Source: a virus. From it: a stretch of DNA of 64,000 nt. The translations under genes and the position numbers were made by a program. Of this stretch, positions 22,326 to 54,215 are shown piece after piece (within the stretch, counting starts at the first letter, position 1; each line of letters begins with the position of its first letter). The stretch covers positions 1 to 64,000 of IMG/VR virus record IMGVR_UViG_3300025759_000082, one strand, 5' to 3'. Below the pieces are notes generated by a model. That model did not search any database. It was not told where the DNA came from and saw nothing but the letters and a program-made list of their open reading frames with translations.

Positions 22326-22360
22326 ATTGTATCACGCAAATTATCTGCTGTACATCCCGG
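22326..22360 (-). promoter_or_regulatory. Class I promoter for the 22287-20757 operon
   Basis: Minus strand: CCGGGATG, 18 bases, TGATACAAT (extended -10). An A/T-rich stretch (AAGTAAAACTAG) lies upstream. The leader to the ATG at 22287 is about 35 bases. Confidence 0.8.
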
Positions 22361-22375
22361 TTTGTTCGGCTAGTT

Positions 22376-22786
22376 TTACTTCAACAAAGCCGTCAGCAGC
22401 TTCATCCGCATGTCAAGGTCCCCCGGCTTGCACAAGGGGGTTAGGTCGCCCAACTTGACCACTGTCCATTTCTGCTTCTTGGTCTTGGGAGCATTCACGA
22501 ACTCGGAGGCGTGATACAGAGAAAACACATCCTTGCGGTCATGAGCGACAGCCACGAACACGCGATAGAAGCCTGTCCGCAACATCTGAGCCATGAACGG
22601 GAGCTGGAAGAACTCGAAGAAAGCCTCTCCGCTATGTTCGACCTTCGCCTCGATCATGCCCATGATTTCGAGTCGATGATAGAGCAGATCAGGGAATCCG
22701 TTCCCAATGAGGTTTTCGATCTGCTTGAAGTGTACGTCGGGTTCCAGCACGCTCATGAAGTGCTTTACGAAGGTATCTTCCTTCAT
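22376..22786 (-). CDS. PD-(D/E)XK (VRR-NUC/HJR-like) nuclease
   Basis: 136 residues from the ATG overlapping the polymerase stop (ATGA). 'GNGFPDLLYHRLEIMGMIEAKVE' gives the G-x-P-D ... E-x-K core, followed by 'FQLPFMAQMLRTGFYRVFVAV', a VRR-NUC/archaeal-resolvase pattern. Probably a structure-specific nuclease acting on branched replication intermediates. C-terminus basic. Confidence 0.8.
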   Translation of the reverse strand: MKEDTFVKHFMSVLEPDVHFKQIENLIGNGFPDLLYHRLEIMGMIEAKVEHSGEAFFEFFQLPFMAQMLRTGFYRVFVAVAHDRKDVFSLYHASEFVNAPKTKKQKWTVVKLGDLTPLCKPGDLDMRMKLLTALLK

Positions 22787-24753
22787 GCTGCTACCCTTTC
22801 GAGTTCCACCACGTCGCCCCACGACGTACCGACGTCAGGCTTTGCTGAAAACGGGATTTCAAGCGGGCATATAGTTTCGAGGATTTTCTGCATTTGAAAA
22901 GCCGTTTCGTCGTCGTAGATGGTGGTGTTGATCTCATCGTAAACCTGAATGTGAGGAAGAATTCCCTGCCGATCCATCTCCACAATAGCCATCTTAATCT
23001 GATCAGCAGCAGAACCCTGGATTTTCGCGTTCATGGCTTTGTGGATTAATGCCCGCGTCACGTTGCCCCAACGATCTACGGCTGCCTCATAATCTTTCAT
23101 CGGGTAACCATCACGGTCTTCCCACCGCGCAGGTTCCCAGCTGTTGAACCGACGTTTCCTGCCTGAATACGTCCTGATGAACCCGTTGGCCTGCGCTAGC
23201 TCCATGCAGTAGTCAGCCAGCTTCTTGACGTATGGCACGCCTTGGTGATACGCTTTCAAGAGCTTGGTAGCTTCTTCAACATCCACACCGAGCTGCTGAG
23301 CTAGCTTCCACTTACCCATTCCGTATGCAGAACCGAGATTGATGCCCTTCGCCTTGCCGCGACCGATGTCCATGCCCACCATATCGCGAATCATGAACTG
23401 TACCATCTCGTGGTAATCGATGTCGGGATTCTCTAGATACTTGCGACGAGCTTCAGCTGCCCCCGGATAGTTCTTAATGAACGCGTAGTGGAGGGACCAT
23501 CTTGGTTCCTGCTGAGAGTAGTCAAGCTTGCACCAACGTCCGCCATAGTCTGCGACGAACAGACGCCGTATTGGCTTACCCCATTTAGGAGACCGCGTAG
23601 GAATCTGCGTGAGGTTAACCTTACTAGAAGCAATTCGTCCAGTCTTGGTTCCATTCTGCTTGTCCTCATCATCCGTACGAAGCTGGTGCCAATTCGGATG
23701 CAGGCGACCGTTGACGTTCTTCGCGAGGATAAGACCCTCGATGAAGTCACGTCGCATCTTGTTCATCTGCCGGAATTCGAGAACCGGACCGAGCTCCTGA
23801 TACTGCTCTCCCAGCTGGAGCAGGTATTCGTTTGTGAAGGAGTCGTTGCCCTTGGCAGTTTTATTGATGGCATGTTCGAGACCGAGAGCCTCGAAAACTT
23901 TACGCAAGCTAACAGGAGACCATGGATCGACGAAGAAGCCAAGCTGGTTCTTCATCATCCGAATGAGCTGGTTTTCCTGCTCTTGGATATCCCTCGAGAG
24001 TGCCTCCGCAGCATCGAGATCGATCCGAACTCCGCGCTTGCGCATCTTCCAGAGACACGGCTGCAGGTCTGACTCGAGCTTCATGACCTCAAGCAGCTTC
24101 TCTTTCTCGAGCCGAGCATGCTGCTGCTTCATGATCAGGATCGGATTGAGCGCGTCGTCCTCGGCGTATGGGCCGACGTACTTGCTGTGGAGCTTCCACA
24201 TTTCCGACTTGGGATCGATACCGGACGCGTCCGCTGCCTCACGAAGCAGCCTCTCCGTCTTGCCTTGACCGAGGTAGTCGCGAGATAGAACCTCGAGCGA
24301 ATACCCGTCAGCCTTCTCCTCGTCCAGGAGCGGCTCTGCATTCTGAATATCCCACAGCGGCCCAACAATAGGAATGCCAAGCGAGTCAAGTGCCTCGAGC
24401 TCGTACATCAGGTTGGCGCCGGCCTTCGTCTGGTGCGGACGGCTAAGCTGCACCTTGACGTAGTCTACGACCTTGTCTTTGTCCATGTTCCCGCCGTCAA
24501 GGTGACCGAACGGGAGATACATTTTCGGCCCATCTTCAACAGCGAGACTGATGCCTACAACTCGAGCATCGCCTCGAATGAAGCCTGGGCCTTCTTCATT
24601 AAGATACGGATCGCGTGACTCGACGTCGATACCGATCGCCTTGGCAGCGGACAGATCAGGAAGGGACTCGGGCGGCGTCCAATCAGATGCCGGAGCAAAC
24701 AGCCCGAGTTGGAGTTCGCTGCTGAGCTTCTTGGATTTACTTCTTTTCGCCAA
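22783..24753 (-). CDS. DNA polymerase, family A
   Basis: 656 residues if started at the TTG at 24753; no ATG lies near the conserved N-terminus. 3'-5' exonuclease: 'IGIDVESRD' (Exo I, D-x-E), 'GANLMYELEAL' (Exo II, with Glu in the usual Asp place) and 'YAEDDALN' (Exo III). Polymerase: motif A 'DYSQQEPR', motif B 'KGINLGSAYGMG', motif C 'VYDEIN' (Tyr where His is usual). Replicative polymerase. It overlaps the deaminase gene by 17 bases. Confidence 0.92.
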   Translation of the reverse strand: MAKRSKSKKLSSELQLGLFAPASDWTPPESLPDLSAAKAIGIDVESRDPYLNEEGPGFIRGDARVVGISLAVEDGPKMYLPFGHLDGGNMDKDKVVDYVKVQLSRPHQTKAGANLMYELEALDSLGIPIVGPLWDIQNAEPLLDEEKADGYSLEVLSRDYLGQGKTERLLREAADASGIDPKSEMWKLHSKYVGPYAEDDALNPILIMKQQHARLEKEKLLEVMKLESDLQPCLWKMRKRGVRIDLDAAEALSRDIQEQENQLIRMMKNQLGFFVDPWSPVSLRKVFEALGLEHAINKTAKGNDSFTNEYLLQLGEQYQELGPVLEFRQMNKMRRDFIEGLILAKNVNGRLHPNWHQLRTDDEDKQNGTKTGRIASSKVNLTQIPTRSPKWGKPIRRLFVADYGGRWCKLDYSQQEPRWSLHYAFIKNYPGAAEARRKYLENPDIDYHEMVQFMIRDMVGMDIGRGKAKGINLGSAYGMGKWKLAQQLGVDVEEATKLLKAYHQGVPYVKKLADYCMELAQANGFIRTYSGRKRRFNSWEPARWEDRDGYPMKDYEAAVDRWGNVTRALIHKAMNAKIQGSAADQIKMAIVEMDRQGILPHIQVYDEINTTIYDDETAFQMQKILETICPLEIPFSAKPDVGTSWGDVVELERVAA

Positions 24754-25174
24754 GATGAACCCACTCTCTGCCGGCGCGACGCCACAAGTTCTCGGAGTCG
24801 CTGTGCGGATATTCATGACGGAATACGATGCGTTTGCACGACGTATTCAGGATGAGCTTCGTGCAGTGGATGCACGGAGAAGCGGTACAGAACAGGGAGT
24901 GGATTTCTTCCACATCCTTGCACTGAAGAAGAGCATTGGCCTCAGCATGAACTGCTTCGCACTTCTCCAATCCCTGCCCGGACGGATAGTGCGCACCGGC
25001 ACACGGCTCGTGAGTACAGTGAGCGAACCCACGCGGCGTGCCGTTGTAGCCCGTCGCGATGACGTGGCGATGGTGGTTGATGATAACGCAACCGACTTGG
25101 CGACGCGGGCAGGTGCCACGCGTCGCCGTCAGTTCCGCCATCTGAAGAAAGAATTCGTCAGATGACGGGCGCAT
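24737..25174 (-). CDS. dCMP deaminase
   Basis: 145 residues starting at the ATG fused with the previous stop (TGATG). The Zn site is clear: 'CEAVHAEANALLQC' (H-A-E) and 'SPCIHCTKLIL' (P-C-x-x-C). An extra N-terminal Cys/His set ('GTCPRRQVGCVI', 'HCTHEPC') matches the T4-type second zinc. Converts dCMP to dUMP for thymidylate synthesis. Confidence 0.92.
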   Translation of the reverse strand: MRPSSDEFFLQMAELTATRGTCPRRQVGCVIINHHRHVIATGYNGTPRGFAHCTHEPCAGAHYPSGQGLEKCEAVHAEANALLQCKDVEEIHSLFCTASPCIHCTKLILNTSCKRIVFRHEYPHSDSENLWRRAGREWVHLGEKK

Positions 25175-25968
25175 CAGATCATTTCCTGCTTGTGCAGGTC
25201 GCCGGTGACGGCGTATTCCCACAGCGCCGAGACAATGTCCGAGCTGTGCTCGAACCGCTGAACCACCAGCTGGGGGCCGCGGTCCGAGGGAGAAAGCCGC
25301 CGGTACAGGACGTCCTTGACGTTCTCGTAGTTGCGCTCGTAGATATGCTGGGATGTCGCACTGAGGCTGAACGTCCCCGGCTCGATGTACTCGGAAGTAC
25401 GCATCCAGTACTCGACCGCGATCATCGCCGACAGCATTGAGAAGTTGAATACGTCGTAGGGCCACCCGAGCCAGGCGTCAGATGAACGCATCTTGTCGAG
25501 ACAGTGGAGCTTGCCTTCCCGGATCACCCACTGCACCGACACGGTACACGGCACGTCCTTCGTTATACGCGGATTGGGCCGCCAGATCGTCATCACCGCC
25601 TGCCGCGAGTCGGGGTCCTTGACCAGCGTGTCGACGACGTACGAGAGTTGATCCACGATCCGGGGGCCGTACGCGCCGAAGAAGCGGATACCATCGTCGG
25701 AGAATTCCTTGATCCGCTTGGCGTAGGGAAGGATGGTCTCGACCCTGTTGTCGCCCGACAGAATCCAAGCCGCTTCGGCCGCCATGAACTTGTAGCCCAG
25801 GTTACGGGCCGGATGTGTGATCACCGGATACGTCATATCGAAACGCATCGTGTAATCCAGAATTTCCTTCGTCTCCATGCCCCGAGGACTGCTGATTTCG
25901 CCGTCCTGGTAAACGTCCTGAAGAAGGCGTTCCCAGGCATTGTTGGCGCAGTCAAAGAATTGGGTCAA
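25174..25968 (-). CDS. Thymidylate-synthase-fold dCMP-type (hydroxy)methyltransferase
   Basis: 264 residues from a TTG (25968) that overlaps the kinase stop and has GGAGG five bases upstream; a GTG at 25980 is the alternative. Catalytic Cys in 'DVPCTVSVQW', phosphate-binding 'KMRSSDAWLGWPYD', then 'SQHIYERN' (His/Tyr of TS). The spacing from Cys to Arg is 20, as in E. coli TS. The residue equivalent to Asn177, which reads uracil, is Asp ('WPYD'). Asp there is the known switch to dCMP in T4 dCMP hydroxymethylase, so the substrate is probably dCMP and the phage DNA may contain modified cytosine. Confidence 0.82.
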   Translation of the reverse strand: MTQFFDCANNAWERLLQDVYQDGEISSPRGMETKEILDYTMRFDMTYPVITHPARNLGYKFMAAEAAWILSGDNRVETILPYAKRIKEFSDDGIRFFGAYGPRIVDQLSYVVDTLVKDPDSRQAVMTIWRPNPRITKDVPCTVSVQWVIREGKLHCLDKMRSSDAWLGWPYDVFNFSMLSAMIAVEYWMRTSEYIEPGTFSLSATSQHIYERNYENVKDVLYRRLSPSDRGPQLVVQRFEHSSDIVSALWEYAVTGDLHKQEMI

Positions 25969-26771
25969 AAGAACCTCCACTCGATTTCGGGCCGCATATG
26001 GCGGTATTCCCGGAATTCCGGGCTTGCCACATGATGGATATTCACAGCCACATAGTTGGGTCTGCTGAGGTGCGCGTACTCCGCGAACTTCAACGATTTG
26101 GGAGTCGCCTCGGACAGCACAGGGCGCTTCGACAACGGCTCGTCGATGATGAAACCCTCATCCGGGTTCCACCTGTTTCCTACGAGGCAGCTCGGATATT
26201 CCTGCTTCGAGCACACATTGAGTCGAAGGGCGACCGAATTGATCATCCATTCGATCCACCGAGTCATGCTGATCGCCCCGTCCACGACGCTGAATACGTC
26301 ATAGCGGAAGTGGAGACGGGAGCCCCTGTCCATCTTCCGCATCAGTACGTCGAAGGCATCGTACACACGAAGCATTCCTTCGCTGTACATTTCTTCGCGT
26401 TTATCCTTGAGCTGGGCGAAGTTTGTACCCACACGCTCGCGGTCATGTGGCATACACCAGATGTACACGATATCATGGGTCAGTGCCATCGTATCCAGAA
26501 GGACCGAAATGTACGGGCACTTCGTTCCGCCGCGATACGCCTTAGCATACGCGACTTCGCTCGGCCACCAGCGATCCAGGATCACGTGCTGGTTCTTGGC
26601 CTTCTTGAGGCACCACTCGATGGCGGCTCGGTGGTACCCGAACATATTGTCCGGGTACCGATAGGTCAGATGCAGATACCGACCATTGAGCCGTTCGACG
26701 AGCGCCTTGCCGAGTGTCGTCTTGCCGACCCCATCGGGGCCTTCCAAGACGAAGATCGTATGGCGTGTCAT
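25965..26771 (-). CDS. Thymidylate-kinase-like nucleotide kinase with C-terminal extension
   Basis: 268 residues. Walker A 'EGPDGVGKTTLGKAL' near residue 10, 'ILDRWWPSEVAYAKAYRG' carries the D-R-x-x-x-S/Y motif of TMP kinases, and a lid-like segment follows ('MPHDRERVGTNFAQLKDKREEMY'). Residues ~185-268 are an extra domain I do not recognise ('CLVGNRWNPDEGFIIDEPL'). Beside a dCMP-type TS homologue it may phosphorylate the modified dCMP. Confidence 0.8.
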   Translation of the reverse strand: MTRHTIFVLEGPDGVGKTTLGKALVERLNGRYLHLTYRYPDNMFGYHRAAIEWCLKKAKNQHVILDRWWPSEVAYAKAYRGGTKCPYISVLLDTMALTHDIVYIWCMPHDRERVGTNFAQLKDKREEMYSEGMLRVYDAFDVLMRKMDRGSRLHFRYDVFSVVDGAISMTRWIEWMINSVALRLNVCSKQEYPSCLVGNRWNPDEGFIIDEPLSKRPVLSEATPKSLKFAEYAHLSRPNYVAVNIHHVASPEFREYRHMRPEIEWRFF

Positions 26772-26779
26772 GACAGCTC

Positions 26780-27385
26780 CTAGTTTGGAAAGACGAGGTC
26801 GGTCAGCTTCGCTGGCACCCAGCCTTCCGGCTTCACGATGTCGAATTGGGTGTCCCTGTGGCCACGCGTGTCGTCACGCTCGGCGCGCACCTTCTTCATG
26901 TTGGCGGAGTGGACGCGCAACCAGCCGAGGTTGAACGCGAACCCGTGCGCTGCCGCCGTTTCCAGCACGCACTGACCGAGCTCCTGGAGCGCGTCGAGCT
27001 TGCCGTCGAGATACCCAGCATCCGTCGCCGACTCGTACTTCTTGATGTACAGAGCCATCTGGCGCATGTGATACTGGGCCAGCGTGTCGTCCAGCTCGCG
27101 AGGAGGACCGAAGTATCCCGTCACGATGCTGCGCTCTCTATACGCCTGACCATGAAGGTAGAGCGTGCCGACCGTTACGTACATGAGGTCGATCAGGCCG
27201 TCGAACTGCTTCTCGAGGTCGCGCTTGGAATATGCTTCGACGTACTCGTCGAATTCCTCGTTCAGGAACTTGATGCGGAAGTCCCTGAGTTCGGCGTCGA
27301 GATGGCGTTCGACCTCGCCGCTGTAGCCGATGCCGAACTTCTCGTGGAACGCGGCGATGCAATTATGGAAGTAGTATTCCATCAT
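26780..27385 (-). CDS. MazG/PRA-PH-like nucleotide pyrophosphohydrolase
   Basis: 201 residues; ATG-ATG start, either usable. All-alpha NTP-PPase pattern: 'FLNEEFDEYVEAY' (E-E-x-x-E), then 'FDGLIDLMYVTVGTLYLHG' (D-x-x-D), and 'RVHSANMKKV' near the end, typical of phage PRA-PH-like proteins. In T4 a dCTPase removes unmodified dCTP; this enzyme could play that part here (inference). Confidence 0.82.
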   Translation of the reverse strand: MMEYYFHNCIAAFHEKFGIGYSGEVERHLDAELRDFRIKFLNEEFDEYVEAYSKRDLEKQFDGLIDLMYVTVGTLYLHGQAYRERSIVTGYFGPPRELDDTLAQYHMRQMALYIKKYESATDAGYLDGKLDALQELGQCVLETAAAHGFAFNLGWLRVHSANMKKVRAERDDTRGHRDTQFDIVKPEGWVPAKLTDLVFPN

Positions 27386-27386
27386 C

Positions 27387-27500
27387 CTACCTGTATTGGA
27401 AAGGTATCAGCAGCTGCCTATATGTATAACGGCCGATACCGGTTGTGAACCACGAAGAGGACAGCATGGAGCTGTTCCTCAACGCTGCGATCTTCGCCAT
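27387..27500 (-). CDS. Possible 37-residue coupled peptide
   Basis: ATG overlaps the methyltransferase stop (TGATG) and the frame runs to a TAG just before the next gene. No motif or membrane segment. It fills an otherwise empty 114-base gap in a tightly packed operon, the main argument for it. Confidence 0.3.
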   Translation of the reverse strand: MAKIAALRNSSMLSSSWFTTGIGRYTYRQLLIPFQYR

Positions 27501-28486
27501 CAGACGACGCCGGTGGCCGGATTGTAGGCGTCAGCGAAGCCCTCGAACATGTGACGCCAGTTCTCGCTGGAAGACCACGGCGCGCCGTCGGTCTGCAGCA
27601 TCGGGTATTTCCGCTCGTACCCTTCCTTCGTGGGCCCGAGGGTCCACATGCAGTTCCTCGCGTCGGCCGGATACAGCGGAGCGAAAATCGTCGCGAGGTA
27701 GTTGGAGTCGTAGACGTCGGCGAGGGCCTGGTAGACCTTGTCGGCGCCCGGGAAATCGGCGTACAGCTTGTGCACGTAGTCACGCTGCGAAGCGAACGTG
27801 CCGATCTCGCGCTTGATCGTGAGACCGCATTCCTCGATCAGCCAGCCCAGGGCGTTGTGATCCATCTCGTTCACGTGGTTGGCGGCGTGACCGACATTGG
27901 AGTCGTAGTTGGGCGTCGACATATAGAAGATGGGGTCCTGCCCCTCCGCCGCCGCCAGGTTCATGATGGTACGAACCTTGGTAAGAACGGCACGCACGTG
28001 CGCCGGCTCGATGTGCTCGAGCATCTCAAAGCAGGTGATGACGTTGGGCAGATAGAAGAAGTCTTCGTTGGGCTTGTTGCCATCGGCGTTCTCGCCGACG
28101 ATGTTGATGCCCATGCGACCGTCGGCCGTTTCCTCGATCGTGACCTGGTTCGACGCAAAGTCGACGCGACCGAACACATCCACAGGAAACTTACCAGTGT
28201 GAAATGGAGTGATGTCCAGCTTAGCACCGTGGTTCCAGTCCATGCCGATGTAGTGTTCGACGATGTAGCGGGACGAGTAGAGAGTTTTGGCGAGCGGGAC
28301 GTCGACGCCGCAGCCGATATCCAGGATGCGCGAAGTCTTGTAGACCTGCTTGCGCGCCATCTCCTTCATGACGTACGTCCAGCGCAGACAGTGTGCGACG
28401 TAGTCACGGTGAATGAAGCCCCGAGCGAGGGCGGTGTCTACCGACAAGTGGGTATTGTCGATGCTCTTTCCACGAGCGTTTGCCAA
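27500..28486 (-). CDS. Class I SAM-dependent methyltransferase
   Basis: 328 residues, TTG start behind CCAAGGAGAA. Motif I 'ILDIGCGVDVPLA' near residue 53, acidic loop 'YIGMDWN', and 'CFEMLEHIEP' (post-motif of the Methyltransf_23/11 group). 'FYMSTPNYD' is motif-IV-like. The substrate is unknown. First gene of the nucleotide/polymerase operon, so a DNA-base or nucleotide modification role is a fair guess. Confidence 0.8.
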   Translation of the reverse strand: MANARGKSIDNTHLSVDTALARGFIHRDYVAHCLRWTYVMKEMARKQVYKTSRILDIGCGVDVPLAKTLYSSRYIVEHYIGMDWNHGAKLDITPFHTGKFPVDVFGRVDFASNQVTIEETADGRMGINIVGENADGNKPNEDFFYLPNVITCFEMLEHIEPAHVRAVLTKVRTIMNLAAAEGQDPIFYMSTPNYDSNVGHAANHVNEMDHNALGWLIEECGLTIKREIGTFASQRDYVHKLYADFPGADKVYQALADVYDSNYLATIFAPLYPADARNCMWTLGPTKEGYERKYPMLQTDGAPWSSSENWRHMFEGFADAYNPATGVV

Positions 28487-28591
28487 TTCTGTTCTCCTTG
28501 GCTATGATAAAAGAAAACCCGCCACAGAATACTGAGACGGGTGCGATGGCGATTGGATTACATGGTCGTTTCCTTTTGGCTGCCTGTCATT

Positions 28592-29279: not shown

Positions 29280-29956
29280 GCGTAGTGCCTCGCCGTGTAC
29301 ATCACGTCCTCGTCGAAGCCGCCCGTCTTGAGTATCCAGGCGAGATACGACTTCGGAACCTCGTCCCAGCGCATGCCGGCGTGCTTCCCGAACATACACT
29401 TGCGGAGAAGGACCGGACGCTGGCTGATCTTGGCCATAGCTTCAAGCGGATTGTCGACGCTGGTCAAGCCCAGGATATGGAGGAACAACATCGCCGTCAC
29501 CTGCGCGTCATACAGAGCGCGATGAGCATGGAGTCCCGACTCGGGGGCCGGGAGTCCGAGTTCGTACCGAAGACACTGGTTGGAATGACAGTCGAAATCG
29601 GGGAACAGACGTGACGCCATCTTGTAGGTGCAAATCCAGGGAATGTCTCCCAGATCGATTACCTCGCTGTCGAACTTCGCATTGTGTGCGACAGCGTACT
29701 CGAACGAGTATTCGAGGATCGGCATCATGGCGTCGTCGTATGCGGGAGCGTCGGCCACCTCACGATCTGTGATATGGTGGATGGCCGACGCCCGAGCCGT
29801 AATGGACTTGGTGGGTTTGACCAAGGAGCTGTACTGATGCACGACTTCCTTGGTGTCGCAGTCCACGAAAACCGCCGCTACCTCGACGACTTCCTTCGGC
29901 TCGTTCTGATCTGGTGGGACAGTGGTCTCACTGTCGATGACCGCTACCACCGTCAT
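29276..29956 (-). CDS. DnaQ/ExoX-like 3'-5' exonuclease
   Basis: 226 residues. DEDDh signature: 'VAVIDSETT' (D-x-E), 'AVAHNAKFDSEVI' (N-x-x-F-D), 'HAHRALYDAQVTAML' (H-x-x-x-x-D). The C-terminal 55 residues ('CMFGKHAGMRWDEVPKSYLAWIL') are the DUF3820-type module often fused to ExoX. DNA repair or proofreading. The start overlaps the previous stop (TAATG). Confidence 0.9.
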   Translation of the reverse strand: MTVVAVIDSETTVPPDQNEPKEVVEVAAVFVDCDTKEVVHQYSSLVKPTKSITARASAIHHITDREVADAPAYDDAMMPILEYSFEYAVAHNAKFDSEVIDLGDIPWICTYKMASRLFPDFDCHSNQCLRYELGLPAPESGLHAHRALYDAQVTAMLFLHILGLTSVDNPLEAMAKISQRPVLLRKCMFGKHAGMRWDEVPKSYLAWILKTGGFDEDVMYTARHYA

Positions 29957-30997: not shown

Positions 30998-31004
30998 TGT
31001 ATTC

Positions 31005-31039
31005 ATAATATCACACAATTTATCGGTAGGTCACCCCGG
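31005..31039 (-). promoter_or_regulatory. Class I promoter for the 30959-28650 operon
   Basis: Minus strand CCGGGGTG, 18 bases, TGATATTAT. Upstream A/T tract AAAATAATTTT is the same UP-like sequence found at 53119 and 54154. Confidence 0.8.
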
Positions 31040-35139: not shown

Positions 35140-35168
35140 ATTATATCCCAAAATTTTCCGGAAGTAAA
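35140..35168 (-). promoter_or_regulatory. Class II promoter of the primase-helicase operon
   Basis: Minus strand TTTACT, 17 bases, perfect TATAAT. Confidence 0.75.
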
Positions 35169-35183
35169 TACCCCCGAAAAACC

Positions 35184-37859: not shown

Positions 37860-37894
37860 ATTGTATCACGAAAAAAACCGCCCGTACATCTCGG
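37860..37894 (-). promoter_or_regulatory. Class I promoter overlapping a terminator
   Basis: Minus strand CCGAGATG, 18 bases, TGATACAAT. The CCGAGATG lies in the loop of the terminator that ends the upstream operon, and the T7 tract falls in the spacer. Confidence 0.8.
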
Positions 37895-40480: not shown

Positions 40481-40519
40481 AGTCGTTTCTCCTTGGTTCG
40501 TAGATCATTCTACGTGACT

Positions 40520-40554
40520 ACAATATCACGAATTCATTTTGGAGGTAATCTCGG
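40520..40554 (-). promoter_or_regulatory. Class I promoter for 40480-39843
   Basis: Minus strand CCGAGATT, 18 bases, TGATATTGT. Its upstream half is the last codons of the preceding gene (PDRPRLPPK), so coding and promoter functions overlap. Confidence 0.75.
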
Positions 40555-42086: not shown

Positions 42087-42200
42087 TTCTCTGATCCTCG
42101 CCACGGAACCTCATCAGTACCTGCATACGTGGCCTATCAAGTAGACGCACAAGCGGGCGGACTCACTCCAGATAGGGTGTCCCGCTTGCACGTTTCGGCG

Positions 42201-42386
42201 CTAGATGCGCTGAACTTTGACGTCCATCTCCTTCCAGTCCATGATGGACACGCCATCTTCGCGGTCCGGAAGTTCTTCGAACGCCTTCACCAAGCGATCG
42301 CCGATGTCCTTGACCATCGGACACTCGAAGGTCTTGGTGCCGTAGAAGCCCTTCTTCGAGCTCACAACGAGTGTTACTCGTAGCAT
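42201..42386 (-). CDS. Small hypothetical protein
   Basis: 61 residues. 'LRVTLVVSSKKGFYGTKTFECP' beta pair, then a helix. The 115 bases downstream hold a CAAGCGGG/CCCGCTTG stem-loop but no gene. Confidence 0.55.
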   Translation of the reverse strand: MLRVTLVVSSKKGFYGTKTFECPMVKDIGDRLVKAFEELPDREDGVSIMDWKEMDVKVQRI

Positions 42387-42537: not shown

Positions 42538-43140
42538 GTCGCCTCCTTCGGTAGTTGACACGTTCATCATATCACGTGAAATTTCTTCCGGTGACTTCGG
42601 CGCGTTCAGGATAGTTTCCAGATACTGGCGATATTCCATCAGCGACGAGTGCATCATCCCATGCACGTCGACCAGGAGCTTCTCGTACTCCAGGTGGAGG
42701 CCAGCCAGATCGTTCCGCCCGGACATGGTCGCCGACCTGACGTTGGCATGGGCGTTATTGACGGCCCGCGACACCCGACCCATGGCCCTCGACATCGTGC
42801 GTTCGATCACATCGTCGGGACCGTGGTACTCGTGAACGCGTCCGCGGTCGGTGTGATCCTGCCCCGGGGTCCACGCCGTATCGCTGATGTGTACCTCCGC
42901 ACTGGACGGGGGAATTCCCATGAGAGCCGCGCGCCGAGCTTGTGCACCATTTGCCATGTTACGTTCCTTGTTTGCCAGAAGGGATTTGATGTGGCGATCC
43001 AGCTCTTCGTAGTCGAGGTGGAAGACGACGCCGTGTGTTACGATGTCGACGGCTGGACTGCCGCCGCGATGGAGTTTGCCGTATCGACCCATGTTTTCCA
43101 AGTCCATGCCGGTCAGGTCGGGACGTGGGAATCTAGCCAT
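42388..43140 (-). CDS. Hypothetical protein with internal promoter and start
   Basis: 250 residues. Helical middle ('RTMSRAMGRVSRAVNNAHANV') and a C-terminal 49-residue beta domain. A class I-like promoter (42566-42600) and a strong GAAGGAGGCGAC site sit inside it in frame with an ATG at 42537, so the last domain may also be made alone. Confidence 0.6.
   Translation of the reverse strand: MARFPRPDLTGMDLENMGRYGKLHRGGSPAVDIVTHGVVFHLDYEELDRHIKSLLANKERNMANGAQARRAALMGIPPSSAEVHISDTAWTPGQDHTDRGRVHEYHGPDDVIERTMSRAMGRVSRAVNNAHANVRSATMSGRNDLAGLHLEYEKLLVDVHGMMHSSLMEYRQYLETILNAPKSPEEISRDMMNVSTTEGGDMVITYKQNGSNYDVKCGERTITLSPHDLIRPISQVTEMNKLIPVQIIEG
42566..42600 (-). promoter_or_regulatory. Class I-like promoter inside a coding region
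   Basis: Minus strand CCGAAGTC, 18 bases starting ACCGG, TGATATGAT. -10 and spacing fit; the upstream half deviates. Confidence 0.5.
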
Positions 43141-43534
43141 ACGGATACCCGTCCCGCACGAATTGGTTGTTGTCCTTGTGGAACCGATCGTGCCACTCGA
43201 TGAGACGAGTGCTGGTCTCGACGAACACCTTCAGGAGCTCGTCGCGGTTGTTGGTGTTGTGGTTCTCGGGCCAGGTGTCGGCGATCACCTCGAGACGCTC
43301 CAAGTCCTGGGTCACGGAGATCATCATCGACTTGAGTTTCGCCGACAACGTCACGTCCTCGAACAGGTGGGACGGAGCCTTCATGATCGCGCCGCTTATC
43401 TCCATCAGGACGCGCGACGACATGATCTGACCCTGGCGGAAGGCCGTGCTCAGGAGGCGTTGCGTGACCTGCTCGGGGAAGGTCTTGATCTTGTAGGAAC
43501 CTTCCCCGAGTTCGGCGCGGCTCAAATCATCCAT
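43133..43534 (-). CDS. Helical hypothetical protein
   Basis: 133 residues from the ATG behind GGAGAAACGAC. Long helices ('LSAKLKSMMISVTQDLERLEVI', 'LLKVFVETSTRLIEWHDRF'). Unknown. Confidence 0.6.
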   Translation of the reverse strand: MDDLSRAELGEGSYKIKTFPEQVTQRLLSTAFRQGQIMSSRVLMEISGAIMKAPSHLFEDVTLSAKLKSMMISVTQDLERLEVIADTWPENHNTNNRDELLKVFVETSTRLIEWHDRFHKDNNQFVRDGYPYG

Positions 43535-45234: not shown

Positions 45235-45284
45235 GTCGTTTCTCCTTGGTTCGCGGGCCATGACCTGTGTGGTCTGGCAATTCT

Positions 45285-45319
45285 ATTATATCACGAATTT
45301 TTGAAGCCGGTCATCTCGG
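45285..45319 (-). promoter_or_regulatory. Class I promoter of the 45234 gene
   Basis: Minus strand CCGAGATG, 18 bases, perfect TGATATAAT. Confidence 0.85.
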
Positions 45320-47782: not shown

Positions 47783-47825
47783 GGACTTCCCTTTTGCCAT
47801 GACCGGTGTTTGATCCGGTACGATT

Positions 47826-47860
47826 ATTGTATCATGAATTTTTCGGGTCGGTCATCGCGG
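47826..47860 (-). promoter_or_regulatory. Class I promoter for the 47782-45324 operon
   Basis: Minus strand CCGCGATG, 18 bases, TGATACAAT. It overlaps the 3' end of the 47832 gene. Confidence 0.8.
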
Positions 47861-48176: not shown

Positions 48177-48751
48177 CTGATATCGCCTCCGTAGGGAACA
48201 ATGGAGTCCACGACTCCGTTTCGATAATTTACCCAGGATATTTCATGGATAGTAGGATAGACAAAAGGCCGGACGGACCTCTTGATGTCCAATGCATGCT
48301 TGCTGTGGTGATAGGCTGGGTTCCCTTCCACCTCGAAGTCATAGCTCTCCACCTTCAGGCCCATCTGGCGTAGCATGAGCCTGAGCGGTGCCTCATGCCA
48401 CTTGTTCGGGGATATCGCTACCCCGACATGGTTCGCCCACGCTGCGGTCGTGGCCAGCACTAGCTTGCTATACGTCACGGTCCGCGATGGGTCGTCCATG
48501 CCGCCATCGAGAGCGGTCTGGATCATCGATAAGGCGAGCGTGACCGTTGGGTCTGGGTGCGCCACGATAGTGTCCCGGGCCGGGATTATCTCAGGCCGGA
48601 ACTTCAGCGCATAGTAGTCCATCCCGACGTACACGTACAGGTCCTTGCCTCGTAGAAACCCGAACCCGTCAAGGTCGTTCTCGCGCTGGCTAATGCGCTT
48701 TTCGATCAGGTCATGTCGGCGAGCCTTGAATTCCTCACTCGGGGTAGTCAT
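48173..48751 (-). CDS. Hypothetical protein
   Basis: 192 residues. 'KLVLATTAAWANHVGVAISP' and a beta C-terminus. No family recognised. Overlaps both neighbours. Confidence 0.6.
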   Translation of the reverse strand: MTTPSEEFKARRHDLIEKRISQRENDLDGFGFLRGKDLYVYVGMDYYALKFRPEIIPARDTIVAHPDPTVTLALSMIQTALDGGMDDPSRTVTYSKLVLATTAAWANHVGVAISPNKWHEAPLRLMLRQMGLKVESYDFEVEGNPAYHHSKHALDIKRSVRPFVYPTIHEISWVNYRNGVVDSIVPYGGDIR

Positions 48752-49529
48752 CGTCGTCGCTGTCCTCGTCAGGGCGGATGAAGCCGGTCGTGTACTTCTC
48801 GAGTATGTCGTAGTGGTGGGAGTAGACCCACTCCTCCGTGACCGTGGCGATGGTGTCAGTGTCGGTGAACTCCACGTTGGTCACGTAATCGAGGAAGTCT
48901 TCCTCAGCGACGAACCCGGCGACCGCCACCTCACCAACACGCTTCGTTGTCGATGGCGTAAGGATAACGACAGTAGAACTAAGGCGACGCCATATCTCAG
49001 TCACCACGTCCTGAAACTCCCTCTCCCATTTAACGCGTTCGTTGTACCGATCCGTGTAGTCCCTCATCCACGTCAAGTAGTGCTGGAACAACTGACCCAT
49101 CGTGGTCTTCATTCCGAGTTCCTGGAAGATGGTACCGTCCGAGCCGGTGAACACGTTCCACAGCCACCACAATCCGATGGTCTGTCTCGACGCGCCTCGC
49201 CGTCCCTTCACGTCCTTCCCCCGGTACCCGTACATAGAATACAACGCGGCCCAATCAAAATCGAGCTGCGTCTTTCCGGGAAGGAACTGACATGCGAACG
49301 CGACCTCCTCCAAGGCCGGTCCCGCGTAGGTAACCATCATCTGGAACCCTGGTCTCAGCTCATGTCGGTACATGTAGCCTTCGACGATCGAGTTCGCCCT
49401 CATGATGTCCTTGCAGTCGTGGATGACCGCGCGGTATCCGGGCGGGATGAGGTCCCACTTGACCTGCAGCAGTGGGTATTGAAGGAGCGAGTCGACTTGC
49501 GTCTGCATCCACAGGTTTTTCTTCTGCAT
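48735..49529 (-). CDS. Hypothetical protein
   Basis: 264 residues, Trp/Tyr-rich ('TIGLWWLWNVFTG', 'QLFQHYLTWMRDYTDRYNERV'), acidic end DSDDDDYPE. Unknown. Confidence 0.6.
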   Translation of the reverse strand: MQKKNLWMQTQVDSLLQYPLLQVKWDLIPPGYRAVIHDCKDIMRANSIVEGYMYRHELRPGFQMMVTYAGPALEEVAFACQFLPGKTQLDFDWAALYSMYGYRGKDVKGRRGASRQTIGLWWLWNVFTGSDGTIFQELGMKTTMGQLFQHYLTWMRDYTDRYNERVKWEREFQDVVTEIWRRLSSTVVILTPSTTKRVGEVAVAGFVAEEDFLDYVTNVEFTDTDTIATVTEEWVYSHHYDILEKYTTGFIRPDEDSDDDDYPE

Positions 49530-50098
49530 CAGTACAGCCCTCTCGTGATAACCTGGAGATGAGTCTCTGCTTCTTCACGCGGCGGTATCGTCTTCGACCA
49601 ACGATTCCCGAGGTCCCGAGTCCGCACGCCGTAGCTGGGTGGAATGATGTCGGCCCACGCCATCAACATTTCCCGATGTGCCCTCGCGTGGAGTCCTACC
49701 TCGGTGCAGTACGAGTTATACGAGGCGTACATACTCTCGTTGGCCATGACGTGTGGCCATGGTGTTCCGCCGCCACCCACGATCCAACCCCGATCCAAAC
49801 ACTCCTTCCACCAGAAGCAGACGGAGTGGCCCTTGGATGGATTGTTTCCAGTGTCTTCCAAACACCGGATACCGATCTTGCCATCCTTGGTGGAAATGGC
49901 GGCGAATACGATCCCGATCCGTGGCTCCGTGTGGTTCCTGTTCTTCACGAGGAGTTCCACATGGGCTCGACTTCTCTGCTTCGCTGGGAAGAAGATTTGG
50001 CCGGGCCGCAACATGGTCCACGGATACTTCTCATACGTATTGCCATCGTCGATCTCGACATCTGCCGCATCAACGATAATCCCGGACGATGGTGGCAC
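49529..50098 (-). CDS. Hypothetical protein
   Basis: 189 residues from a GTG behind CTAGGAGAAACC. 'PWTMLRPGQIFFPAKQRSRAHVELL' then 'GKIGIRCLEDTGNN'. Unknown. First gene of its operon. Confidence 0.6.
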   Translation of the reverse strand: MPPSSGIIVDAADVEIDDGNTYEKYPWTMLRPGQIFFPAKQRSRAHVELLVKNRNHTEPRIGIVFAAISTKDGKIGIRCLEDTGNNPSKGHSVCFWWKECLDRGWIVGGGGTPWPHVMANESMYASYNSYCTEVGLHARAHREMLMAWADIIPPSYGVRTRDLGNRWSKTIPPREEAETHLQVITRGLY

Positions 50099-50130
50099 AG
50101 TGGTTTCTCCTAGATTGTTGGTACCACACT

Positions 50131-50165
50131 ATTATATCACGAGAAAATGGAGTCGGTAATCTCGG
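50131..50165 (-). promoter_or_regulatory. Class I promoter for the 50098-47832 operon
   Basis: Minus strand CCGAGATT, 18 bases, perfect TGATATAAT; A/T-rich UP-like tract (AATAAATTATCC) upstream. Confidence 0.85.
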
Positions 50166-51076
50166 TTTTACGGCCATGGATAATTTATTTTACCTGCAAT
50201 TTCCGAGCCCAGAATCTAGTATTGAAATATTCGGTTATCACCATATTATTAGCAGTCCGGGCATGTGTGGACTATTGGTCTTGCTCATCCGGCCGGGGTC
50301 GGGCGGCTTAAGTGATTGATCTGGTTTATACAACCGACGACCTAGGGTTTTGTGGAATGAGTCGGGGGTCGGGGGCCGGATGGACAATATAAGAGCAGTA
50401 CACCGTTGACATAAAAATACCTATAACCCTAAGGTTACCATAGTAACATGGTATTCTTATATCCACTTATCATAGTAAATTATAGAGGGTCGACATGACA
50501 CCAGAGTGTTGGGACTGTATTATTCATCTGTCTTAAGCTTAAAAAGATATAAGAAAGTATACTAAGTTCAGACCGAGAGGGTAAAACTTGTTTAATCCGA
50601 TCAATAGGTTAAGTACAGGACAGACAAGTCCTCATGCTTACACTGCCGGTCTTGACACTCCCGGAAGGATTGTCTCTTCTTGCCCCCGCCGTCCGGATTT
50701 GCCTCGCCAGTGACACTGTTGTCACTTCGGTGTCCCATAGATGGCCGGATGTTAGTGCGACATCCAATTTTCAAAGTGCCGCTGTTTCCAGCTACCGGCC
50801 CCAGGACCTCACCCCGTAAAAATCGCCTCGCTACCAGCCAATCCTGGTCAGAATGCGGCAGAACTTGGTCAACTTTGGGAAATCCGGGGATCGCGGCCCT
50901 CGGTCCACCCCTCGTCATGCCCGGCCCCAGGCCCGAGCACGGCTGCGAGTGGATAGTGGAGCAAAGACCGCGAAACTTGGGCTAGGTGCAGTGAGCCGAG
51001 ACCTGCTATCGTCTGACAGTGCTACGAAGACACCCACATTGGGCAAGGCAGGGCACGGCAAGACAGAATACGACAA
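50166..51076. other. Longest non-coding region; candidate origin
   Basis: No credible gene on either strand. 50380-50640 is strongly A/T-rich, with a perfect TTGACA (50406-50411, + strand), GTTAC-CATA-GTAAC (50434-50447) nested in ATACC/GGTAT, and the palindrome TTAAGCTTAA (50533-50542). AGTGAC/GTCACT lies at 50710-50727. The rest is GC-rich and featureless. A/T-rich DNA with nested dyads in a GC-rich genome suits a replication origin or phage control region; no perfect DnaA box is seen. Confidence 0.45.
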
Positions 51077-51106
51077 CGCGCCTGGGGGAGAGAGAACCCA
51101 GGCGCG
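51077..51106 (-). terminator. Terminator of the 52074-51143 operon
   Basis: Perfect 10-bp stem CGCGCCTGGG/CCCAGGCGCG around ten bases, then (minus strand) TTGTCGTATTCTG, closely like the sequence after the stem at 31604-31636. Confidence 0.7.
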
Positions 51107-51142
51107 CTGTGCTCGTACTGTGGTCTGGCTAACGCGCCTCCT

Positions 51143-51262
51143 TCACAGCAGAGAGAAAGCGAAGTCCCACACCTTGGCTACGAAAACCAAGATGAACGGG
51201 GCTGCGCACAAGGCAAGGGTGACTGCCAACACCCTGCCGAAGATATCGATGAACGGCTTCAC
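51143..51262 (-). CDS. 39-residue membrane protein
   Basis: GTG overlapping the previous stop (GTGA). One long TM ('VLAVTLALCAAPFILVFVA'). Confidence 0.55.
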   Translation of the reverse strand: MKPFIDIFGRVLAVTLALCAAPFILVFVAKVWDFAFSLL

Positions 51263-51507
51263 CGTGCGGCAGCCGCATCAACCAGCTTGCGCAGCTCTTG
51301 GTGAACCGCGTCGAACTCAGCCCGCTCGTCGACCAGGCCCTCCCAGACCTTCCGCCACTGGTCCTTGGTCGTGGCGTCGGTGCACCGGCCCATGGCCCGG
51401 GACGCGTTGTCCACGCGTGCGTCGAATTGGGTAGCCTTGTCCCGCGCAAGGAACAGGAGATGGTTGCGCAAGCTAGCGAAGCCATCCACAATCTCTGCAT
51501 CAGTCAT
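51259..51507 (-). CDS. Small helical protein
   Basis: 82 residues from the second ATG, which has proper spacing from ACCAAGGAGA. Helix-rich, ends DAAAAR. Unknown. Confidence 0.6.
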   Translation of the reverse strand: MTDAEIVDGFASLRNHLLFLARDKATQFDARVDNASRAMGRCTDATTKDQWRKVWEGLVDERAEFDAVHQELRKLVDAAAAR

Positions 51508-51582
51508 GGTCATCTCTCCTTGGTCTCATCAGCTGCCGCATTACGGCAGGACGCGGCCGACCGTAGCCAGCCGCGTTTCGAC

Positions 51583-52074
51583 CTACTCCTCGCCGTCGTC
51601 GCCGTCTTCATCAGCCTCGGGCGGCGCCGTGTAGCCCTCGACGTGCGTCAGGCCGAACTCTTCCATCTTCTTGCGGTAGTAGGCGAAGAGGGAAGCCGGT
51701 GCGATCCGCGACACGACGTAGGAGTCGGCGATCGCATGTTCCTGGATGAACGGCCCGGTGTACGCGATGCCCGGTTCCATCTTGTCGCGCATCCAGAAGA
51801 GGGTGCGCTGGGCCTGGTTGGGCAGCTTGCCGATGCTCTTGTCCTTGACCGCCGCGTCGAACACCTCGCGGTTCAGAGCGTAGAACTTCCGACGCCACGG
51901 GACGTTCCCGCTTCGGCCGACCCGCCGGATGGGCTGGGGGATCATGAGACCGTTGTCGGCCTGGACGCGCTCGACGCCGAGATCATCGACCACCTTGGTC
52001 GGGGCCGGCGGCGTCTCCATGACGACGGGAGGGGTGGCAATCATCGCTTTGCGGTTCTGATTTCGGGATGCCAT
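51583..52074 (-). CDS. Hypothetical protein, ordinary-composition paralogue
   Basis: 163 residues behind GAAGGAGAAAC. Core 'RSGNVPWRRKFYALNREVFD', 'VKDKSIGKLP', 'LFAYYRKKMEEFGLTHVE' is shared with the gene at 54535-54933. Ala-rich, normal phage codon use, disordered N-terminus and acidic C-terminus. Function unknown. Confidence 0.7.
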   Translation of the reverse strand: MASRNQNRKAMIATPPVVMETPPAPTKVVDDLGVERVQADNGLMIPQPIRRVGRSGNVPWRRKFYALNREVFDAAVKDKSIGKLPNQAQRTLFWMRDKMEPGIAYTGPFIQEHAIADSYVVSRIAPASLFAYYRKKMEEFGLTHVEGYTAPPEADEDGDDGEE

Positions 52075-52125
52075 GGTCGTGTTTCTCCTTCGTTGAACCA
52101 GATCACCAATTGATCTGATAGGTAC

Positions 52126-52160
52126 AGTATATCATATTTTCGTTTTGTGGTACATCCCGG
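52126..52160 (-). promoter_or_regulatory. Class I promoter for 52074-51143
   Basis: Minus strand CCGGGATG, 18 bases, TGATATACT. Confidence 0.8.
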
Positions 52161-52188
52161 ATTTGAAAATATTTTGCCGGGATGTACC
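52149..52188. repeat. Perfect 12-bp inverted repeat spanning a promoter's upstream half
   Basis: GGTACATCCCGG (52149-52160) and CCGGGATGTACC (52177-52188) flank an A/T loop holding the palindrome AAAATATTTT. It could be the hairpin ending the upstream gene or a dyad operator. Confidence 0.7.
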
Positions 52189-52198
52189 GAGACCCGCC

Positions 52199-52375
52199 TT
52201 ATTCGGCCGGCGCCCACTGAGCCGGCGTGATGGCGAATTGGAAGTCCTTGTCCGAGTCGTCTTCGATCTCGCGGATCATGCGGTCGACCAAGACCGACAC
52301 GTGCTCGTGCTCCGCCGTGAGAATGGTGACGGCTTCGTCATCCCGGATGTTCAGTGCGGTAAGAGCAAGCTTCAT
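52199..52375 (-). CDS. Small acidic protein
   Basis: 58 residues behind TAGGAGAG. 'LTALNIRDDEAVTILTAEHEHVSVLVDRMIREI'. Unknown. Confidence 0.55.
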   Translation of the reverse strand: MKLALTALNIRDDEAVTILTAEHEHVSVLVDRMIREIEDDSDKDFQFAITPAQWAPAE

Positions 52376-52452
52376 TGTTCTCTCTCCTAAGCTCATCAGC
52401 ATGGGCCTCACCCATGGACGCGGTGTCGCCGCAGCACCGCGTTTCGCTTTGG

Positions 52453-52806
52453 CTATGCGGCGTTCCACTTGTCGCGGAGGTCGAAGGTGTAGATCGCCGC
52501 CTGCTCGATCAGCTGCCGTGGTATGCCCTGACTCTCATACCACGTCGAGATGGTCACGGTCTGTCCGACCGCCAACGCTTCCTGGACGTCCGCCGCCTTG
52601 TCGTGGTGCGACGCCGTCGCTTTCCTCAGGTAGCTGATGCGGCGCCGAAGGTCGTTGCTGATTCCGCAGTAGACGGGATCGCCGTCGGCATACACGATGT
52701 AGACGCCGGCCTTGGGAAGGGGACCGATCTTCATGATGTCGTACTGAGGCGTGAAATCCACGGACGCCAAGAGGTCCGAGGCCGCCGCCTTTGCTGTGTT
52801 TCGCAT
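52453..52806 (-). CDS. GIY-YIG endonuclease-like protein
   Basis: 117 residues. 'GVYIVYADGDPVYCGISNDLRRRI' carries G-V-Y and Y-C-G with R, and 'LIEQAAIY' the Glu. Single-domain; may be a homing-type or repair nuclease. Confidence 0.75.
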   Translation of the reverse strand: MRNTAKAAASDLLASVDFTPQYDIMKIGPLPKAGVYIVYADGDPVYCGISNDLRRRISYLRKATASHHDKAADVQEALAVGQTVTISTWYESQGIPRQLIEQAAIYTFDLRDKWNAA

Positions 52807-52883
52807 TGTTCTCTCCTTGATCTCATCAGTGCGGAACCAATCCGCAGACGCGGTGCCACGAAGACACCGCGTTTCGATCTGTT

Positions 52884-53087
52884 TCAGAGAGGACGGAATT
52901 CCTCCATTCCCAATTTCTCCCGCAACATCCCCGCGATGACCGACGCTTCCGTGTATCGATCCACGATCTCATTCGTGAGGGGATTGAGATTGCGGCAGTC
53001 CCCGCACGCGCGGGACGCCGCGTCCTCCAACACGGTGAGGAATTCCCGGACGTAATCCTCGGCCGTCATCTTTTCCACATCGATCAT
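52884..53087 (-). CDS. Small protein with Cys pair
   Basis: 67 residues behind CGGAGAG. 'DYVREFLTVLEDAASRACGDCRNLNPLTNEIVDRY' is helical with C-G-D-C. Unknown. Confidence 0.55.
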   Translation of the reverse strand: MIDVEKMTAEDYVREFLTVLEDAASRACGDCRNLNPLTNEIVDRYTEASVIAGMLREKLGMEEFRPL

Positions 53088-53118
53088 GATATCTCTCCGT
53101 TGTTCGTATTACGGGATC

Positions 53119-53182
53119 ATTATATCATGAGATCGATCAATGGGACATCCCGGCGGTAGGATTTATTTTGCCGGGATGCGCC
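53119..53182 (-). promoter_or_regulatory. Class I promoter on an inverted repeat
   Basis: Minus strand CCGGGATG, 18 bases, perfect TGATATAAT (53119-53153). Arms 53142-53154 and 53170-53182 pair at 12 of 13 positions (one G-U), with an AAAATAAATCC tract between. Serves 53087 and downstream. Confidence 0.8.
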
Positions 53183-53192
53183 GTGACTCGCC

Positions 53193-53471
53193 TTATTCGG
53201 TACTGAGTACCTCCAGGCAGATGCTGCGCTCTGCCGCCTCGTACTCGGCGTCGCCGCCCTCGACCTTGTCGAAGGCCATGATGAACTTCTCCTCGAGGCG
53301 ATCGACCTCGTCGAGATACTCCATGCTGGGCCGTTCCGGCATCGGCATCGGCTCCTGACCCACGCCGCAGCGGTACTGGATCACGTCGTCCCATGCCGCG
53401 TCGGCGTCGTTCCCCGGGCCGGCCGGACCTCCCACCATGATAGCGGTGGCGAGGGCGATGGTGGTAAACAT
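53193..53471 (-). CDS. Exported small protein
   Basis: 92 residues behind ACCAAGGAGA. Signal peptide-like 'MFTTIALATAIMVGGPAG', cleavage likely before 'NDADAAWDD'; two Cys. Unknown. Confidence 0.6.
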   Translation of the reverse strand: MFTTIALATAIMVGGPAGPGNDADAAWDDVIQYRCGVGQEPMPMPERPSMEYLDEVDRLEEKFIMAFDKVEGGDAEYEAAERSICLEVLSTE

Positions 53472-53550
53472 TGGTCGTCTCTCCTTGGTCTCATCAGCGT
53501 GGACCTCATCCACGGACGCGGTGCCACGAAGACACCGCGTTTCGACCTGC

Positions 53551-53880
53551 TTAGATCATATCTTCCGGCTTGCGCAGGTCGGGTATCCACGTGGCCTTTT
53601 CATCGTCCTTGCCCGACCAGCAGGCGAGCGGCCCCTTGCACGTGACCAGCAGGTGGCTGCCGTCGCCCATGAGGAAGCTTCCGTAGACTCCGGCTCCTCG
53701 TGGCTCACCGAGCTCGTCCGAGAGACGGTCGGCCGGGATGTACTTGTGGGTGCCGAAACCCTTGTGGTCGAACACATCCACGTAGCCGCCTCTCAGCGCA
53801 GTCGACTCCATCCCTGCCGGGTCCTTGAATGTCGTGGCGCAGTGCGCCTTGACGTACATACCTGCGATCTTGGCGTACAC
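53551..53880 (-). CDS. Hypothetical beta-rich protein
   Basis: 109 residues, GTG behind ACCAAGGAGAGACGACC. 'VDVFDHKGFGTHKYIPADRL' and 'GSHLLVTCKGPLACW'. Unknown. Confidence 0.55.
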   Translation of the reverse strand: MYAKIAGMYVKAHCATTFKDPAGMESTALRGGYVDVFDHKGFGTHKYIPADRLSDELGEPRGAGVYGSFLMGDGSHLLVTCKGPLACWSGKDDEKATWIPDLRKPEDMI

Positions 53881-53954
53881 GGTCGTCTCTCCTTGGTCTC
53901 GTCAGCGTGGACCTCATCCACGGACGAGGGAGGTTTCCCTCCCTCGTTTCGACC

Positions 53955-54122
53955 TTAGTCGTCGACCCCGACCTCTTCCTTGATGTCCTCGAGGAAGTCG
54001 ACCGTCTCCTGGAGGAGGGTACGGGTCGGTCCGTGTTCCTCCCTCTTCACCTCGTTCTTCACCGACTCGAGGAGACGTCCGTGGTGGAGTTGGATCAAAC
54101 CACACAGTTCTTCCATCGTCAT
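53955..54122 (-). CDS. 55-residue alanine-free protein
   Basis: ATG behind GAACCAAGGAGAGTAC (12-base match to the candidate RNA). 'MEELCGLIQLHHGRLLESVKNEVKREE', then an acidic end. Has no alanine, as its DNA lacks GpC. Unknown. Confidence 0.6.
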   Translation of the reverse strand: MTMEELCGLIQLHHGRLLESVKNEVKREEHGPTRTLLQETVDFLEDIKEEVGVDD

Positions 54123-54153
54123 TGTACTCTCCTTGGTTCGTGTTAACCCTTAC

Positions 54154-54215
54154 ATCATATCACATTTCAGGTTTGTGGTACACCCCGGTTTCGAAATTAT
54201 TTTACCGGGGTGTAC
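54154..54215 (-). promoter_or_regulatory. Class I promoter on a perfect inverted repeat
   Basis: Minus strand CCGGGGTG, 18 bases, TGATATGAT (54154-54188). GTACACCCCGGT (54178-54189) and ACCGGGGTGTAC (54204-54215) form a perfect 12-bp dyad around an A/T loop. Confidence 0.8.

Follow-up and report, generated by a model that had tools for sequence, protein, structure and literature searches.

The CII protein of phage lambda binds a direct repeat, TTGC-N6-TTGC, that flanks the -35 element. At the middle promoters of phage T4, the phage protein MotA reads an asymmetric element near -30/-35 on promoters served by host polymerase, with AsiA involved (PMC6024815). Type II hammerhead ribozymes are known from bacteria and phages, including clusters between phage-type genes, and a 2011 survey regards the biological functions of phage hammerheads as unproven (PMC3088659). 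Here we describe a family of near-identical promoters on the minus strand of a virus genome, interleaved in part with hammerheads, in a window of 64,000 nucleotides that makes up most of the 67,412-bp IMG/VR record IMGVR_UViG_3300025759_000082. The reading we favour, to which we would give about an even chance, is that these are co-regulated sigma-70 promoters at which a further factor acts at the -35 region in the manner of MotA, and whose transcripts are capped by hairpins.

An earlier note on this DNA had listed ten minus-strand copies of CCGRGATK-N18-TGATATAAT, each said to head an operon. All ten are present where it placed them (Table 1), with a spacing of exactly 18 bases in 10/10, and a search of the whole genome finds the motif restricted to the minus-strand arm of the record. 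With up to three mismatches allowed, the combined motif occurs 10 times versus 0.38 expected by chance, and a count of 10 was attained in 0/100 shuffles. The block CCGRGATK alone is weakly informative (27 matches vs 13.4 expected); it is its fixed distance from TGATATAAT that makes the family informative. The block is exact in seven of the ten sites, the others reading CCGCGATG (47826) and CCGGGGTG (31005 and 54154). A weight matrix of the ten sites scores its members at 35-46 bits, or 23-39 bits when each is left out in turn, and the maximum in simulated genomes of the same composition was 8.3 bits. The next-best score, 24.6 bits, belongs to a site at 42566; it too is followed by a ribosome-binding site and start codon, and is probably an eleventh member. 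Two further sites, 35140 (18.7 bits) and 56046 (15.3 bits), have a similar -10 and leader and are without the CCG block. A start codon with a ribosome-binding site follows 20-45 nucleotides past the predicted +1 in 13/13 cases (the 11 family sites and the two block-less ones), as expected if each heads an operon. Averaged over pairs of copies, identity reaches 0.83 for the block and 0.85 for the -10, against 0.39 for the spacer and 0.30 for the leader (0.25 expected); since the latter two are near background while block and -10 are conserved, the copies are not merely recent duplicates. Promoters 52126 and 54154 are alike in spacer and flank too, so some copies are duplicates.

Numbering starts at the predicted +1, placed seven nucleotides after the -10; on this purely predicted scale the start is a purine in 10/10. 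The extended -10 spans -15 to -7 and contains an invariant TGATA (TGATA...T) in all ten sites, which matches the TGnTATAAT-like -10 of sigma-70. At the -35, in contrast, the best match to TTGACA covers only 2-4 of six positions; a subset of sites has ATGACC with an 18-nucleotide spacer (4/6 vs TTGACA). The block overlaps this -35 and extends upstream of it, as the earlier note had it, and the conserved element proves longer than the eight bases proposed there: CCGRGATKWMC, at -41 to -31. The shared A/T-rich, UP-like tract is likewise real at several sites, the region from -59 to -42 averaging 66% A+T versus 44% genome-wide and reaching 78% at 52126, 54154 and 31005. At 52126 the tract reads AAAATATTTTCAAAT, which is close to a full UP element of the E. 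coli type. With an extended -10, often a UP-like tract and a weak -35, the promoters would fit host sigma-70 RNA polymerase. Promoters of single-subunit phage RNA polymerases are conserved from about -17 to +6; here conservation runs from -41 to -7, and we rejected that class.

Because the -35 matches are so poor, and because the CCG at -41 corresponds to no sigma-70 or UP-element sequence, more than sigma alone is probably at work, and the fixed spacing would point to contact with the polymerase more than to simple blocking. The earlier suggestion of an activator site rather than sigma alone thus holds in part: a factor other than sigma is the best explanation, and a host activator is less likely, since the exact motif was found in only nine unrelated genomes when those of 84,980 species were scanned. 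On account of these scattered matches we also rejected a regulator encoded by the host and a promoter class used host-wide. Since the motif is absent, isolated 3-mismatch matches apart, from 17 related and reference phage records and, as a class, from host genomes, the factor is probably specific to this lineage. Host polymerase with its main sigma would hold the extended -10 (TGATATAAT), aided at several sites by the UP-like tract, while the asymmetric 11-base element at its fixed distance from the -10 would take the place of a good -35. A dedicated, probably phage-encoded DNA-binding factor on this element would control, most likely activate, the whole minus-strand arm at once. The likeness to T4 middle promoters lies in the use of host polymerase, a good -10, no real -35 and an asymmetric element at fixed spacing. 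The sequence differs, however, the element lies at -41 to -31 whereas the MotA box is centred at -30, and a Pfam scan of 65 minus-strand open reading frames (ORFs) found no MotA or AsiA homologue, of which very divergent versions are possible. The same scan gave no phage polymerase or sigma factor, and these were set aside as candidates. Lambda CII promoters likewise have an activator-type site overlapping the -35, but the site here is a single asymmetric block and not a direct repeat.

Six of the ten predicted transcripts open, at base 1 or 2, with a hairpin (-4 kcal/mol or better, beginning within the first two nucleotides of the predicted +1), and its sequence is different in each; examples are GCCAGACC-ACACA-GGTCaTGGC, GTAGA-ATGA-TCTAC and ATCAGATCA-ATTGG-TGATCTGGT. 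The rate at random minus-strand places is 16% (binomial P 0.002 for 6/10), and at flanking positions it is 48/970, where positions overlap and a P value is indicative only. The signal is highest at offset 0 relative to the predicted +1, and because the hairpins begin exactly there in 6/10, the start-site predictions gain independent support. Stem-loops at the extreme 5' end of E. coli mRNAs of the ompA type were reportedly described as stabilisers by Emory in 1992 (cited in PMC7509114). The hairpins here likewise stand at the extreme 5' end, but they are predicted only and are repeated before many phage genes. They probably protect the mRNA against decay, a role that we infer, so that six of ten transcripts would start immediately with a small hairpin, a probable 5' cap, and run on into the ribosome-binding site.

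A search for shared leaders found CTGATGAGACCAAGGAGAG in front of four genes. Together with the sequence upstream, these four leaders form complete type II hammerheads of the order GGUC-GAAA-stem III-UC-stem I-CUGANGA-GACC; in their alignment 60/60 pair cells are standard, and two-sided (compensatory) changes occur in 8/15 pairs. A covariance model found six hammerheads in the window, with E 3e-12 or better; outside the window it found one in G013 and, more weakly, one in G008 (IMGVR_UViG_3300048924_000151). A descriptor search added a hammerhead near 42198, probably a seventh of type II, with a possible loop-tail pseudoknot, a contact that has been described for this type (PMC3088659). The type II core (GAAA, UH and CUGANGA, three stems, open stem II) is present in 6/6 and in the probable seventh. 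At its own cut-off, Rfam found no hammerhead in the window and gave hints only below it. Core and open stem II are thus those of known type II hammerheads; unlike them, six or seven occur in one arm, each intergenic and joined to the ribosome-binding site that follows, with hairpin-starting promoters in between. Nine consecutive genes, 54429-51513, have one device ahead of each, in the order H P H H P H H P H (H, hammerhead; P, family promoter). If the ribozymes are active, predicted cleavage would expose the stem I hairpin followed by the ribosome-binding site, a 5' end of the type predicted for the promoter leaders, and the hammerheads of the 51-54.5 kb stretch would in this way generate further 5' ends of like kind between genes. 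Of 123 well-formed type II hammerheads in viral contigs, all of the sequence subtype GGTC/GACC, 58 are immediately followed by a ribosome-binding site and start codon, versus 4% of random positions. This subtype is common in viral contigs, some of which have 2-3.

The alternation of promoters and hammerheads is more surprising than the promoters alone. It suggests that phage hammerheads set and protect mRNA 5' ends. We hold more tentatively, and as less probable than not, that nearly every message of the right-hand early stretch carries a 5' hairpin, and often a 3' one too, by way of interchangeable promoters and hammerheads, which would turn a polycistronic arm into capped single-gene mRNAs.

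The 3' hairpins in that picture concern three promoters, 52126, 53119 and 54154, at which a second copy of the block lies in inverse orientation 16-17 bases upstream. Promoter 31005 has an imperfect, poor inverted copy upstream, and six of the ten promoters have no inverted partner, their block being a single asymmetric half-site. Divergent promoters were rejected for the inverted arms, no -10 being seen by eye on the opposite strand, as were intrinsic terminators, for want of a T run. Rather than protein sites, the three repeats may be hairpins in the RNA that form or shield the 3' terminus of the upstream gene's message, with the block doing double duty, to which we give somewhat less than an even chance. 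They lie directly past the stop codon of the preceding gene, their folding energies are -22 to -26 kcal/mol, and an A-to-G change in the 54154 repeat is matched in both arms. What makes the idea attractive is that the inverted copies are restricted to the hammerhead stretch, where every gene has its own 5' end. Promoter 37860 also overlaps a hairpin of terminator-like form: at 37905-37876 on the minus strand, a 12-bp intrinsic-terminator-like hairpin with a T run overlaps its block, so one operon may end within the next promoter. Against an RNA role stand the missing T run, which holds for all three hairpins, and the fact that a symmetric protein site would appear identical.

Table 1. Positions of the predicted promoters, inverted repeats, candidate hammerheads and candidate regulator genes in the window
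Feature	Positions	Strand	Predicted start and hairpin	Gene headed or led	Remark
Family promoter	22326..22360	-	+1 at 22319; 6-bp hairpin from +1	22287-21703	
Family promoter	31005..31039	-	+1 at 30998; 7-bp hairpin from +2	30959-30546	
Family promoter	37860..37894	-		37831-37682	
Family promoter	40520..40554	-	+1 at 40513; 5-bp hairpin from +1	40480-40010	
Family promoter	45285..45319	-	+1 at 45278; 8-bp hairpin from +1	45234-44737	Best match
Family promoter	47826..47860	-	+1 at 47819; 5-bp hairpin from +1	ORF start 47800 or 47782	
Family promoter	50131..50165	-		50098-49529	
Family promoter	52126..52160	-	+1 at 52119; 9-bp hairpin from +1	52074-51583	UP-like tract
Family promoter	53119..53153	-		53087-52884	
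Family promoter	54154..54188	-		54122-53955	
Probable eleventh member	42566..42600	-		Short ORF 42537-42388	CCGAAGTCACC...TGATATGAT
Block-less sigma-70-like promoter	35140..35174	-		35110-34478	TATAAT
Block-less sigma-70-like promoter	56046..56080	-		56019-55522 (HNH-type)	Head of arm
Perfect inverted repeat	52149..52188				GGTACATCCCGG-N16-CCGGGATGTACC; holds block of 52126; RNA hairpin -21.9 kcal/mol
Inverted repeat	53146..53178				Holds block of 53119; RNA hairpin -23.2 kcal/mol
Perfect 13-nt inverted repeat	54177..54216				Holds block of 54154; RNA hairpin -26.2 kcal/mol
Hammerhead candidate	54437..54495	-		54429-54226	
Hammerhead candidate	53887..53954	-		53880-53551	
Hammerhead candidate	53479..53547	-		53471-53193	
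Hammerhead candidate	52811..52879	-		52806-52453	Stem II pair swapped (GAUC/GAUC)
Hammerhead candidate	52382..52449	-		52375-52199	
Hammerhead candidate	51514..51583	-		51513-51259	Rfam Hammerhead_II E 0.024, below cut-off
Probable seventh hammerhead	42098..42201	-			Long stem III; possible 6-bp loop I-tail pseudoknot GCCACG/CGUGGC
Orphan protein, candidate regulator	54535..54933	-			132 aa; 55% identical paralogue of 51583-52074
Orphan protein, candidate regulator	51583..52074	-			163 aa; first gene of promoter 52126

The structural genes of the virus resemble those of Synechococcus phage Yong-L2-223 and the Agrobacterium phages Milano, 7-7-1 and OLIVR4, and its minus-strand arm encodes DNA polymerase, primase, helicase, ligase and thymidylate synthase, together with many orphans. 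For the early arm itself, the collections contain no very close relative; one locus (L021) spans its edge only. The motif family was absent from 17 related and reference phage records, which gave isolated 3-mismatch matches only; none of 100-odd loci contained a strong match, and 12 IMG/VR contigs gave single matches only. The three Agrobacterium phages (Schmittlotzvirus) turned out, by expectation-maximization motif search, to have repeated promoters of their own, TTGAC...TACAAATSATTTGTATAAgg, in about 8-10 near-identical copies each, and as in the window each copy is closely followed by a ribosome-binding site and start codon. Unlike the promoters of the window, theirs have a classical TTGAC -35, a palindrome, TACAAATSATTTGTA, over the spacer and -10, and no CCGRGATK. 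For 7-7-1, the published account lists five promoters and reports no evidence for temporal control (PMC3517404). Some of the TACAAATSATTTGTA promoters reach an intrinsic terminator within about 45 nucleotides (Milano 41743; 7-7-1 25865 and 37798; OLIVR4 26394 and 37681). G008 has five copies of a repeated promoter-like GTGGCGCTTTATATGCATACCGGAACGAACCGG, the likely start lying close to a CCGG-loop-CCGG hairpin; the unit, GTGGCGCTTTATATGCATACCGG..., lies on the plus strand at 29331, 31155, 31457, 35533 and 39230. Yong-L2-223 may have another repeated promoter: by eye, TTGACA/TTGCAA is followed by a TATGYG-like sequence and then by ATCGCAACACGGAG ahead of gene starts, for example at record positions 43218, 56383, 57416 and 62695 (minus). 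Related phages thus have in common an arrangement with many identical early promoters, but each lineage has put a sequence of its own in the place that is read. What appears to be new here are the +1 hairpins, the intergenic hammerheads giving like 5' ends, and the unrelated repeated early promoters of the relatives.

Several points weigh against activation by a factor on the block and capping by hairpins. The hairpin threshold was chosen after the first hairpins had been spotted by eye, and a clear +1 hairpin is missing in 4/10. No helix-turn-helix, MotA, AsiA or sigma family came up in the Pfam scan. A strong extended -10 with a UP-like tract could fire unaided, and would equally suit a repressor; moreover, the palindrome in the early promoters of the Agrobacterium relatives sits where repressor sites typically do, between -35 and -10. 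The block could accordingly be a phage repressor operator, strong early promoters being shut off later by a lineage-specific protein that covers -41 to -30. Besides the UP-like tracts and the relatives' TACAAATSATTTGTA, the inverted second block copy at three promoters and the annotation of XRE or Cro/CI-type regulators in 7-7-1 and OLIVR4 speak for an operator. Nevertheless, we consider it unlikely, if the most serious competitor for the role of the block: six of ten promoters have a lone asymmetric half-site and the inverted partner at 31005 is poor, steric repression has no need of an invariant spacing to the -10, and the weak -35 is left unexplained. In mycobacteriophage L5-type stoperators, asymmetric repressor sites are spread outside promoters as well; in the window, five block matches above 13 bits lie outside the promoters and inverted arms, versus about 1.8 expected by chance.

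Less probable still, and in our view doubtful, is a reading with no separate protein, in which an unusual sigma factor, of host or phage, recognises the block as nothing more than its -35. The fixed spacing would suit this, as would the ATGACC subset; but a host-wide sigma sequence should recur within one taxon, and the nine genomes in the species-wide scan are unrelated. The minus-strand ORFs yielded no sigma factor, -10 and +1 are ordinary sigma-70, and the best-conserved bases, the CCG at -41 to -39, are located beyond the -35 on its upstream side. Chance or recent duplication alone is extremely improbable, for although 52126 and 54154 resemble each other, spacer and flanks are near background over all pairs while block and -10 are 83-85% identical, and 10 sites versus 0.38 expected, with matrix scores of 35-46 versus at most 8.3 bits, rule out chance.

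For the preferred factor on the block, two orphan proteins are candidates. The paralogues encoded at 54535-54933 and 51583-52074 share a basic, conserved 92-residue core and are putative block-reading regulators; searches of phage records, viral contigs and solved structures returned no match to either. If the block requires a phage protein, the family would possibly represent middle promoters and the block-less 56046 the true early promoter. CCGRGATKWMC offers a clear DNA bait for finding the phage regulator.

Three other stretches near these elements deserve mention. The approximately 430 bp upstream of promoter 50131 (50166-50600) contain no minus-strand ORF of at least 60 aa and are partly A/T-rich. 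On the minus strand at 54964-55215, before gene 54933, repeated (C)CTCC / GGAG-type segments and A/T runs are found, and further on TATATT, an 8-bp hairpin (-8.1 kcal/mol) and AAGGAGAG; this stretch is perhaps another hairpin-starting promoter. Finally, on the plus strand at 58447-58485, an inverted repeat, CGCTAGG...CCTAGCG, is followed directly by TGCTATTAT; both precede the large terminase gene and together are a possible regulated late promoter.

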